Shown here: positions 39,849-43,286 of the stretch, piece after piece
How positions within the stretch are numbered: position 1 is the first letter of the stretch
How the letters are laid out: each line of letters opens with the position of its first letter
Assembly: GCA_022846035.1 (NCBI GenBank)
Contig: AP025580.1
Span: forward strand, 434,001 to 498,000
DNA from: Christensenellaceae bacterium
GTDB lineage: Bacteria > Bacillota > Clostridia > Christensenellales > Christensenellaceae
DNA length: 64,000 nucleotides
Direction: 5' to 3'
The notes under the pieces: model-generated
Told to the model about the DNA's origin: nothing
Databases searched by the model: none
What the model saw: the letters and a program-made list of their open reading frames with translations, nothing else
Translations under genes and position numbers: made by a program

Positions 39849-39882
39849 AACCCTGTTTGCGGTGGCAAGCAGGGTTATTTTT
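39849..39882. terminator. Terminator between convergent genes
   Basis: AACCCTG and CAGGGTT enclose TTGC-GGTG-GCAA, with T residues after it. It reaches the 3' end of the EndoQ-UvrD gene. A smaller CGCCCG/CGGGCG hairpin precedes it near 39790-39813. Confidence 0.8.
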
Positions 39883-42800
39883 AGAAAAATCCAAGCTGCT
39901 TTACGGCGTTCTTTTTGTGCGCGAAAGCAGGTGCTTCGATTATGCTTTGCTTGGGAAAACCATTTAAAAACGGCGACGGTTCCTGTTTATCCGCCAGCAA
40001 GACGAGCTCATTCTGCGCGCGTGTCAAGCCTACGTAAAACAGCCTGCGTTCTTCCTCTAAATCACTTTTATGCTTTTCATTGCAGAAAGGGATCGTTCTT
40101 TCGTTTACGCCGCACAGAAACACCACGGGGAATTCAAGACCCTTAGAGGCATGCAGTGTCATCAGCGTGACCGCGTCTGACGTATAGGCTTTATGTCCGC
40201 TGCGGCGCACGTCACCCTCCTTGCCCAGAGTGAGGTTTTTAAGGAATTCATCCATGCGTTCGTGCAGCACGGCTGTGTTGATCAGACGCTGGAGCGGCTG
40301 GGGAAGTGCTTCGAAATCCTGCTCGCCTACCCACATGGAAAGCAGGGCTTCGGGCGATTCCCTCCTGAGGAGCGGCGCAAATTTTTCGAGCATATCGGCA
40401 TTTTTGCTTTCGCCTAATTCGCGCAGTAAACAGGTGAGGCTGGCAATGCATTGTTTTCCCGCGCCGTATTTTTCCAAGACTGCTTGCATGGATGCAGGCG
40501 GAACGCTTGCCGATTTTAAGTATGTCGTCAGCGAGACGCAATCCTTTGGATTGCACAAAAAACGGAAAAACGCTAAAGCGCCCATCACCCGACGGTCGGA
40601 AAGACTGTCATCCCTGCCGGCCACCACATAGGGAACGCCTTCCTTTTTCAGGCATTCTTCGATAATTTCCGACTGGCGGTGCGTGCGGTACAAGACTGCA
40701 ATATCGCCAGGGCCGTATTGCGCGTCCGTATGCTTTTTGGATTTGGCATGCGCGGCCAGCATATCTACGCCGCCTACCATGTGGTTGATCTCTTTTGCGA
40801 GGAATAAGGCCTCGGAAAAAGAGGAGTCCACCGTGAGTAGCCGCACAGCAGCGCCGCTTTCCCGCTTTGCCTCTAAAATTTTCTCGTTTCGCCCTATAGC
40901 GTGGAGCGCACAGTTGATGATTTGAGGCGTGGAGCGATAATTATCCTTTAAACGGATTTCATATACAGGGGCAAGGTCTTCGTGCAGCCGCGCAAAACAC
41001 TGGGCGTCGCTCCCGCGAAAGCCGTAAATAGACTGGTCGGGATCGCCTATTACAAAAAGATCCCCCTGTTTGTTCCACGCGCGGATCAGGCGGTATTGCA
41101 CAGGGTTTATATCCTGAAATTCGTCCACCAGCAAGTGGGAAAAGCGGGGCAGGAAAGCCTGCATTTTCGTGTCGCCGTCCTCAAATCTAGCGAGCGTATC
41201 CAATAAAATATCATCGAAATCCACAACGTTCAGTTGCCTGAGCCGGGCGCAATAGGCGTCGTATACCACGAGCGGCACGTCTCCGGCAGCTCCGTTCTTG
41301 ACGCGTGAAATTTCCGAGAGCGCCTCGCGCGGGCGCATGCTGCAGTTACATGCTTTCAGCACGTCGGAAAGCACGCTGAGCGCCGCGTTTTGGTCGATGA
41401 CGGTGATATTTTTATTCCATGCACAAAGCATGTCCAGGCAAATGGAATGGAAAGTGCCGATATGCATGGCCTTAACGATCTTTTTGTCGTGGAAATATTT
41501 GCCTAAACGTTCGCGCATCTCTGTGGCGGCTTTGTTGGTGAAAGTCACGGCGGTGATCTCCGCAGGATCGACGCCGCATTCCTCGATGAGGTAAGCGATA
41601 CGGCAGATAAGCGTACGCGTCTTGCCCGTGCCCGGACCGGCCAAAACGGCAACCGTAGGCTGCTTTGCACAGGCCGCCATCCATTGTTCGGCGTTTAATC
41701 CATAGGGATGGCCGGACATGATCTGCTCCGGCATATCGGAAACGGATGTTTCGCCGGACGTCTTTCGGACAGGAGAAAAAGGAGCCTGCCGTATGTTTTT
41801 TTCTTGTGCGCCGAACAGGCTCAGTTGACCTGCAAACAAGCTGCGCTCGTCCTTATTCATCACCAGGATTTTGCCGTATTCACCGTCGTAGCCGGGATGG
41901 ATTTCCACCTCGCCGCTACGAAGCCGCCGGATTCCTTCGGCAATGAAAGGGTCGGACGCCGCTTTAATATCCTCGATCGGCGCTTCGCGTAAAATATGCA
42001 GCTCCGGACCGAGCTTATGCAGAATATCCTCGTATTGGGCTTTGACTTTTTTGCTTGCCGTCGTCATCCCCATAGACGCCGCGATAACTTCCGGAAGGGG
42101 AACGATACTTTCAAAATGCTTGGCATTTTCCGGTTTAAAACCGGCTTCACGGTCGGCCAGTTCCACAACGCGATGGTAAACGCCCACCGTAATCCTGCGT
42201 CCGCACACAGGGCATTTGCCACCTGCAGCAATCGTTTCCTCGGGCGTGAGGCATACTTTGCAGTTTCTATGACCGTCGTTGTGGTATTTTCCTTCCTCTG
42301 GGAAAAATTCCAGTGTGCCGTAAAATTCATCCGTATCATGGCTTGCAAGCGCACGGGCGACCGACGGATAGGAAAGCCCTGTATTGAAAAGGTTCGCTTC
42401 GCGCGCGAGGTTCGCGGGGGAATGTGCGTCGGAGTTGGATACCATGGTGAAACGGTCGAGCGCAGACAGCCGCCAGTTCATGGGCGGATCGGAAGAAAGC
42501 CCCGTTTCCAGCGCATGAATATGCGGCGTCAGGTCTTCAAAGCATTCCTCTATCGTATCGAAGCCGGAATACGCCCCAAATAATGAAAAATGGGGAGTCC
42601 AGATGTGCGCGGGAATAAAAATAGCGTCAGGGCAGGTATCGAGCGTAATCTCCAACAGGTCATGGCTGTCAAGGCCGAGGATAGGCCGCCCGTCCGAATG
42701 AAGATTGCCGATCAGCTCTAAGCGGTGCGAAAGCGCCTCGCCTGCTTCCAGTGAAGGAAGCAGGATTACGTTATGAACCTTGCGGACCCTGCCGTTCTTT

Positions 42801-43081
42801 TTATAAATCGAACTGATTTCGCCGGAAATCACAAAACGGGGAGCAGGCGCGTCCCCAACTGTTTCCGCAATACGGAAGTCGTCCTTTAAACGGTAAAGGC
42901 CGTCTTCCGCCGGAACAAATTTTTCTTTCAATTCCTCCCGCCAGACAGGGTGGGTAAAGTCGCCCGTGCCGATGAGGTCAAGCCCCTTGCGGCGCGCCCA
43001 TAAATCAAGGTATTCAGGCATACACTCTTTGCTGGTAGCGCGGGAATATTTGGAATGGATATGCAGGTCCGCGATAAACAT
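39881..43081 (-). CDS. Endonuclease Q-UvrD helicase fusion
   Basis: A 1066-aa fusion. Residues 1-440 match endonuclease Q: PHP motif DLHIHSKYSRAT, GTGDFTHPVW, SNSDAHSP, and a four-Cys zinc site C274/C277 and C290/C293. EndoQ nicks 5' of deaminated bases or abasic sites in archaea and a few bacteria. Residues about 465-1066 form a UvrD/PcrA-type superfamily 1 helicase with Walker A GPGTGKT near 480, DEFQD near 652 and HASKGLEFPVVFL near 1000. ATG 43081 is preceded by AGGAG; upstream in-frame codons overlap the neighbouring gene. Cotranscribed with the small Cys protein 4 bases upstream. Confidence 0.85.
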   Translation of the reverse strand: MFIADLHIHSKYSRATSKECMPEYLDLWARRKGLDLIGTGDFTHPVWREELKEKFVPAEDGLYRLKDDFRIAETVGDAPAPRFVISGEISSIYKKNGRVRKVHNVILLPSLEAGEALSHRLELIGNLHSDGRPILGLDSHDLLEITLDTCPDAIFIPAHIWTPHFSLFGAYSGFDTIEECFEDLTPHIHALETGLSSDPPMNWRLSALDRFTMVSNSDAHSPANLAREANLFNTGLSYPSVARALASHDTDEFYGTLEFFPEEGKYHNDGHRNCKVCLTPEETIAAGGKCPVCGRRITVGVYHRVVELADREAGFKPENAKHFESIVPLPEVIAASMGMTTASKKVKAQYEDILHKLGPELHILREAPIEDIKAASDPFIAEGIRRLRSGEVEIHPGYDGEYGKILVMNKDERSLFAGQLSLFGAQEKNIRQAPFSPVRKTSGETSVSDMPEQIMSGHPYGLNAEQWMAACAKQPTVAVLAGPGTGKTRTLICRIAYLIEECGVDPAEITAVTFTNKAATEMRERLGKYFHDKKIVKAMHIGTFHSICLDMLCAWNKNITVIDQNAALSVLSDVLKACNCSMRPREALSEISRVKNGAAGDVPLVVYDAYCARLRQLNVVDFDDILLDTLARFEDGDTKMQAFLPRFSHLLVDEFQDINPVQYRLIRAWNKQGDLFVIGDPDQSIYGFRGSDAQCFARLHEDLAPVYEIRLKDNYRSTPQIINCALHAIGRNEKILEAKRESGAAVRLLTVDSSFSEALFLAKEINHMVGGVDMLAAHAKSKKHTDAQYGPGDIAVLYRTHRQSEIIEECLKKEGVPYVVAGRDDSLSDRRVMGALAFFRFLCNPKDCVSLTTYLKSASVPPASMQAVLEKYGAGKQCIASLTCLLRELGESKNADMLEKFAPLLRRESPEALLSMWVGEQDFEALPQPLQRLINTAVLHERMDEFLKNLTLGKEGDVRRSGHKAYTSDAVTLMTLHASKGLEFPVVFLCGVNERTIPFCNEKHKSDLEEERRLFYVGLTRAQNELVLLADKQEPSPFLNGFPKQSIIEAPAFAHKKNAVKQLGFF

Positions 43082-43085
43082 ACGC

Positions 43086-43286
43086 TTACTCCTGTTCTTC
43101 GCGTGCGACGAAGTGATCGCATTGGCACTTTTCGCCCGTGAGCATATCCGGATCGATGTCGCCGTAAATCTGGCACGAACGAATTTCCGGCATGCCCGGG
43201 GCAAACGTCAGTACGCCGTAATGAACACAGTTAAAGCAAAGCACGTTTTCTTCATTGATATAATTTTGTTTCAGTTGGATTCCCAT
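43086..43286 (-). CDS. Small five-cysteine protein upstream of EndoQ-UvrD
   Basis: A 66-aa protein, start chosen at ATG 43286 because AAAGGG is 8 bases before it. Cysteines are C17-x2-C20, C38 and C54-x-C56 followed by H58, a pattern fit for zinc or an iron-sulphur cluster. I do not recognise the family. Four bases separate it from the EndoQ-UvrD start, so the two are almost certainly co-translated and it may be a cofactor or regulator of that enzyme. Confidence 0.65.
   Translation of the reverse strand: MGIQLKQNYINEENVLCFNCVHYGVLTFAPGMPEIRSCQIYGDIDPDMLTGEKCQCDHFVAREEQE

Follow-up and report, generated by a model that had tools for sequence, protein, structure and literature searches.

The window analysed here is a stretch of 64,000 nucleotides from a Christensenellaceae bacterium (contig AP025580.1, positions 434,001 to 498,000), in which the minus strand carries a gene (P0001, 39881..43081) for a fusion of endonuclease Q (EndoQ) to a UvrD-type helicase. 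The open reading frame starts with an ATG at 43081, encodes 1066 amino acids and ends with a TAA at 39881-39883, the stop codon being included in the coordinates. From the N-terminus the protein consists of an EndoQ domain (residues 1-408; 41858..43081, minus strand), a linker (residues 409-461; 41699..41857, minus strand), a UvrD/PcrA-type superfamily 1A (SF1A) helicase (residues 462-1030; 39992..41698, minus strand) and a short tail. In keeping with the original prediction of EndoQ and a UvrD helicase joined in one chain, both halves match at full length by sequence and by fold. An AlphaFold2 model of the whole chain, built with 96 fused sequences, recovered the EndoQ fold and the UvrD fold with a mean pLDDT of 89.5, while most of the linker (residues 419-456, pLDDT <50) and the tail were disordered. 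The fused frame recurs in about 120 loci of other genomes and is therefore neither a chance event nor an assembly artefact, the possibility of a chimeric assembly being ruled out by this recurrence.

The identity of the N-terminal half is established along its entire length. Residues 4-408 align with residues 5-383 of Pyrococcus furiosus EndoQ (PfuEndoQ; phmmer, E 4e-49), all 374 positions of the profile TIGR00375 (NCBIfam, a hypothetical equivalog) were aligned (177.6 bits, E 5e-52) and the EndoQ half of the model matched 5zb8 with a Z score of 47.0 over 387 residues at 2.7 Å. The end-to-end match and the EndoQ fold rule out a generic PHP domain and bear out the assignment of residues 1-440 to EndoQ that had been proposed. 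The 177.6 bits do not reach the curated TIGR00375 cut-off of 326.6 bits; the domain is a member of the same superfamily in a separate subfamily, referred to here as type B. Residues H8, H10, E76, H84, H139, E167, D193 and H195 of PfuEndoQ correspond to H7, H9, E88, H103, H159, E192, D218 and H220, and these PHP core metal ligands were invariant when residue conservation was scored over 96 fusions, such that a loss of catalytic metal residues is ruled out. Alanine mutants of E76, H84 and H139 of PfuEndoQ are inactive (PMC8307549), and H139 together with G169 and S171 was reported to keep thymine and adenine out of the base pocket, the latter two corresponding to G194 and S196, again invariant in the 96 fusions. 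The PHP domain is followed by a zinc ribbon in which C290-P-V-C293-G fits the pattern CPxCG. This ribbon had been described as a four-Cys motif, but C277 is a cysteine in only 64 of the 96 fusions, whereas H271, C274, C290 and C293 are invariant. Because C277 varies, the zinc is most likely bound by H271, C274, C290 and C293 (HCCC), with a histidine at the position of PfuEndoQ C249. By homology, the type-B domain may act on deoxyuridine (dU), deoxyinosine (dI) or abasic sites.

The C-terminal half is a helicase of the UvrD type. The UvrD-helicase and UvrD_C families matched across residues 462-1030, as did structures of PcrA, UvrD and Rep, and the motor half of the model matched D. radiodurans UvrD (4c2t) with a Z score of 47.0 over 569 residues, subdomains 1A, 1B, 2A and 2B all being seen. 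Membership of SF1A was judged on motifs Q, I, Ia, II, III, IV, V and VI and on the four subdomains, all of which were found, and the motif residues checked (Q466, K487, T488, D653, E654, R716, H977, E1010 and R1021) were invariant in the 96 fusions. A full superfamily 1 helicase had been placed at residues 465-1066, and a complete one is indeed present at residues 462-1030. Its scores fall under the curated equivalog cut-offs for both PcrA (344.7 against 911 bits) and UvrD (280.8 against 1144 bits), and in a tree the fused helicases form one group apart from PcrA (support 87). Every fusion-bearing genome of the order that was examined has a separate PcrA (G000, G398, G401, G407, G446 and G448). 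UvrD and PcrA translocate 3' to 5' and, by analogy, the fused helicase would be expected to unwind DNA in the 3'-to-5' direction in an ATP-dependent manner.

The chain also carries two beta-clamp-binding-like motifs, one in the linker and one at the C-terminus, which the original prediction had overlooked. The first, QLSLF (residues 419-423; 41813..41827, minus strand), directly follows the EndoQ core, and the second, QLGFF (residues 1062-1066; 39884..39898, minus strand), makes up the last five residues; both lie in segments of low pLDDT and agree with QL(S/D)LF, the clamp-binding consensus of bacteria (PMC11139829). A clamp motif was present in the last 16 residues of 107 of 120 fusions, compared with a mean of 1.2 and a maximum of 5 for shuffled tails, and in none of 11 PcrA tails, with the exceptions among the fusions mostly keeping degenerate forms (QPGLF or QTTLF, for example). 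The linker motif was found in 72 of 106 fusions, Q419 being conserved in at least 90%. By inspection, 11 of 12 stand-alone type-B proteins are without a tail motif; the pattern match in one stand-alone protein (L180) falls inside the folded core, and another (L186) ends in GQTTLF. Among type-A EndoQ proteins, the second bacterial clade described below, the pattern used here detected a clamp-like motif within the last 25 residues in 1 of 30. In archaeal EndoQ a PIP box at the C-terminus binds PCNA with a dissociation constant of 55 nM and stimulates nicking, and clamp-like motifs in bacterial EndoQ homologues were already noted by the same authors (PMC4858679). As it follows the EndoQ core, the linker motif occupies the place of the archaeal PIP box, with the second motif gained after the motor. 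The conservation of these motifs points to a protein that works tethered within a complex for repair or replication.

The fusion is stable and ancient. It was present in all five same-genus genomes tested at 68-86% identity (6/6 in the genus with the present genome) and in 51 of 398 genomes drawn over the phylum (a hand tally that includes a few copies cut by contig ends), while any EndoQ was found in 207 of the 398. In a wide scan, 84,980 species genomes yielded at least 592 stretches encoding relatives, and the 80 best of these were retained. By record titles, 52 of those counted are from Bacillota and the remainder from Thermodesulfobacteriota, Gemmatimonadota, Myxococcota, Spirochaetota, Nitrospirota (as a split form), Chloroflexota, Latescibacterota, Calditrichota, Elusimicrobiota, Melainabacteria and unranked groups. 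The fused form spans at least 10 bacterial phyla; many of the relatives come from metagenome bins, such that single-phylum cases (for example Treponema) could be mis-binned. While EndoQ had been introduced in the original prediction as a mainly archaeal enzyme, the form found here belongs to a distinct bacterial clade, usually fused and present in many phyla, and is not an archaeal stray.

A tree of EndoQ domains contains two deep bacterial clades, type A and type B, separated by a long branch. Type A is stand-alone, ends in GGGGxYG like PfuEndoQ and includes the high-scoring members of TIGR00375. Type B (SH-aLRT 99) is represented in the tree by 56 fused, 12 stand-alone and 1 split protein and is marked by the signatures EISSIYKKxxRxRKVH, PAHIWTP, ETGLSSD and GYDGEYG together with the HCCC ribbon. 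The stand-alone type-B proteins fall at several places within the fused clade, which suggests that the helicase has been lost repeatedly. In the split form, on a Nitrospirota contig (L147:5583-8813), a type-B EndoQ of 423 residues ending in GQGTLF is followed about 10 bp later by a separate gene for a 650-residue UvrD; this helicase lies on the PcrA side of the tree and so may represent an independent pairing.

In four genomes (L174, L175, G278 with L176 and L177, and G324 with L178 and L179) a fused type-B EndoQ coexists with a stand-alone one, the two copies being a few kb apart in L174 and L175 and the stand-alone copies lacking a clamp motif. In one complete genome (G341:C1; L045, L187) an in-frame TAA interrupts the N-terminal part of the fusion, which may therefore be a decaying copy.

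We regard it as slightly better than an even chance that the fusion, tethered to the clamp, makes a nick on the 5' side of a deaminated or abasic nucleotide and then unwinds from there. In support of this the catalytic and motor residues are intact, the folds match, the clamp motifs are kept and repair genes neighbour the fusion at some loci (see below). The linker and tail motifs would dock the chain on the beta clamp, where the type-B EndoQ domain would flip the damaged nucleotide, deaminated or abasic, into its pocket and cut 5' of it, by homology producing 3'-OH and 5'-phosphate ends in the damaged strand. Nicks made by PfuEndoQ have these ends, and the lesion lies on their downstream side (PMC4357722). 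The SF1A helicase would then load on the intact strand at the nick and move through the lesion site, peeling away the lesion-bearing 5' end. UvrD acts likewise after a 5' nick in mismatch repair. A clamp-bound polymerase could extend the 3'-OH behind the helicase, the flap then presumably being cut by another nuclease prior to ligation. This order of nicking and unwinding fits the anatomy of the chain, and we infer each of the functional steps. The earlier description of a self-contained excision machine was overstated, since a polymerase, flap removal and a ligase would still be needed and the clamp motifs point to a tethered part.

A wider proposal, in which the fusion is the key enzyme of a widespread bacterial excision pathway, glycosylase-independent and sliding-clamp-coupled, with one chain finding the deaminated or abasic nucleotide, nicking 5' of it and stripping the damaged strand, and replaces UDG or EndoV in some lineages, is more tentative and to our minds somewhat short of an even chance. 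The distribution of other deamination-repair enzymes speaks for the nick-and-unwind reading itself. UDG-superfamily genes were missing from 41 of the 398 sampled genomes, and the fusion was present in 18 of these 41 compared with 33 of the 357 UDG-bearing genomes (Fisher p 1e-7), while stand-alone EndoQ was without such an association (16/41 compared with 139/357). Within one family (f32) the fusion was present in 4/4 UDG-lacking and 0/5 UDG-bearing genomes (p 0.008). EndoV was found in only 7 of the 398 genomes, 3 of these belonging to one family, and EndoQ in none of the 7 compared with 207 of the 391 others (p 0.006).

Several points weigh against nicking and unwinding of deaminated DNA as the function. 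The UDG and EndoV tests ignore phylogeny, some of the genomes are incomplete, and the sets of fused and of UDG-negative genomes come from a hand tally of tables. Of 39 fusion carriers taken from the wide scan, 36 also have UDG, such that strict replacement of UDG is not general, and the present genome has three UDG-superfamily matches of its own. Next to the base pocket the fusion has T193 where PfuEndoQ has L168 and W161 where it has F141, an extra conserved loop (SIYKKxxRxRK) lies between two metal ligands in type B, and no assay of any type-B EndoQ was found in accessible papers. The clamp motifs are short, and the AlphaFold2 model came without inter-domain error estimates, such that the placement of EndoQ against the helicase is not fixed. 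There was no universal operon partner among the loci examined; unconserved neighbours are expected for a housekeeping gene.

The main alternative reverses the order of events, with the helicase opening the duplex ahead of EndoQ, nicking following unwinding and the clamp motifs attaching the chain to the replisome for pre-replicative scanning. Two clamp motifs would suit such a search motor, as would the presence of dnaN-gyrB near the fusion in three Desulfobacterales loci (L154, L160 and L163), and PfuEndoQ cuts uracil and hypoxanthine in single-stranded DNA (PMC11354406). The same enzyme, however, acts on duplex DNA without unwinding, and single-strand cuts at a fork would break the chromosome; we consider this order unlikely, though worth keeping in mind. 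A shift of the pocket towards a different lesion, for example oxidised pyrimidines, abasic sites only or ribonucleotides, would leave the order of events intact and take the enzyme out of deamination repair. The long branch between types A and B would be consistent with such a shift, as would the 42 conserved positions specific to type B, several of them close to the pocket. At three loci yaaA lies 0-8 bp upstream of the fusion (L097:140-892, L105:7166-7990 and L119:7195-7998). YaaA is a peroxide or oxidative-stress protein. PfuEndoQ, moreover, cuts oxidised pyrimidines and abasic sites in addition to deaminated bases (PMC8307549). The thymine- and adenine-excluding residues (H139, G169 and S171 in PfuEndoQ) are nevertheless invariant here and the distributions of UDG and EndoV favour deaminated bases, making a different lesion rather improbable.

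A further possibility is anti-phage defence, with a Gabija-like nuclease-helicase acting on phage DNA that might contain uracil. A defence role has been suggested for Bacillus EndoQ (PMC8307549), and PADLOC models of GajB match the helicase part. These matches reflect generic UvrD similarity and score under PcrA models, no relative was found in 50,697 phage records or 72,556 plasmid records, and no defence gene or nuclease partner was recognised beside the fusion in the loci examined. The neighbours are housekeeping or repair genes and the fusion is present in every genome of the genus examined (6/6). Defence as the principal function was ruled out on the GajB scores and the lack of phage or plasmid matches, and a role in it appears very improbable. 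In a last explanation the helicase would be mainly an ordinary PcrA-like accessory, its linkage to EndoQ only co-regulating two activities. The long disordered linker and the persistence of the EndoQ half alone in some lineages are compatible with so loose a fusion, but each fusion-bearing genome examined of the order has a PcrA of its own, the fused helicases form their own clade, and stand-alone type-B forms have mostly lost the clamp motif too, all of which renders it highly doubtful.

The EndoQ enzymes of P. furiosus (5zb8, 7k30) and Thermococcus share full-length homology, fold and catalytic residues with the fusion, and the archaeal PIP box and QLSLF are both clamp-binding-type motifs placed after the core. 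Compared with PfuEndoQ, to which it is about 31% identical, the fusion has a histidine for Cys249, the extra loop and GYDGEYG for GGGGKYG, and its chain continues into a helicase and bears a further clamp motif. EndoQ of Bacillus pumilus and B. subtilis (TIGR00375) is of the same family and domain order, whereas it belongs to the other deep clade (type A by signature) and has no helicase; nicking by the B. pumilus enzyme has reportedly been shown. With UvrD, PcrA and Rep the fusion shares all four subdomains and the motifs checked, differing in its N-terminal EndoQ, its clamp-motif tail, its own clade and its sub-cut-off scores. Gabija (GajA-GajB) likewise combines a nuclease with a UvrD-type helicase, whereas the fusion is one chain, of PHP type, chromosomal and found in repair contexts. 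GajA is a nuclease unrelated to EndoQ.

A literature search, from which subscription papers were out of reach, found no description of an EndoQ-helicase fusion. The parts are known, while searchable papers describe neither their combination and its spread nor the type-B subfamily or the pair of clamp motifs. What follows an EndoQ nick is an open question: the lesion is left at the 5' end of the downstream strand and still has to be displaced. A helicase of expected 3'-to-5' polarity, joined naturally to EndoQ and flanked on either side by putative clamp tags, points to an answer that could be tested in mesophilic, partly culturable bacteria. EndoQ is also common in bacteria, as its frequency in the sampled phylum shows. 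A fusion active as predicted might also be of use as a one-protein tool to nick and unwind DNA at uracil or inosine.

Directly upstream of the fusion lies an open reading frame for 66 amino acids (P0002; 43086..43286, minus strand), which is conserved at 72-87% in 6/6 genomes of the genus, always in this position. Its stop codon is 4 nt ahead of the fusion ATG and abuts AGGAG (43089..43093, minus strand), the putative ribosome-binding site of the fusion, which lies inside the end of P0002 and overlaps its last codons, making translational coupling plausible. The original prediction had seen here a co-translated partner with five cysteines. The reading frame is conserved, as expected for a real gene product, but only four of the cysteines (C17, C20, C38 and C56) are invariant and P0002 was found in this genus only, such that it is ruled out as a general partner of the fusions. 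The four invariant cysteines suggest a small metal site. P0002 matches no Pfam or NCBIfam family, and with a predicted structure of low confidence (pLDDT 44) it is not assigned a fold.

Repair genes beside the fusion were recorded as instances observed, without a chance expectation for comparison. A family-4 UDG lies 4 bp upstream of the fusion in Geobacter argillaceus (L153). In Moorella stamsii (L133) and in G212 (L188) uvrB is upstream and uvrA a few genes downstream, while uvrB-uvrA is found a few kb downstream in L131. Operons join the fusion to recG in L137 and to recX in L152, and the yaaA genes of L097, L105 and L119 and the dnaN-gyrB pairs of L154, L160 and L163 belong to the same set of neighbours. 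In two genomes of one family (L174:2895-7786 and L175:2476-7202) the first 4 bp of the fusion are shared with a DUF763 gene (PF05559, E 5e-127), which might hint at what DUF763 does.

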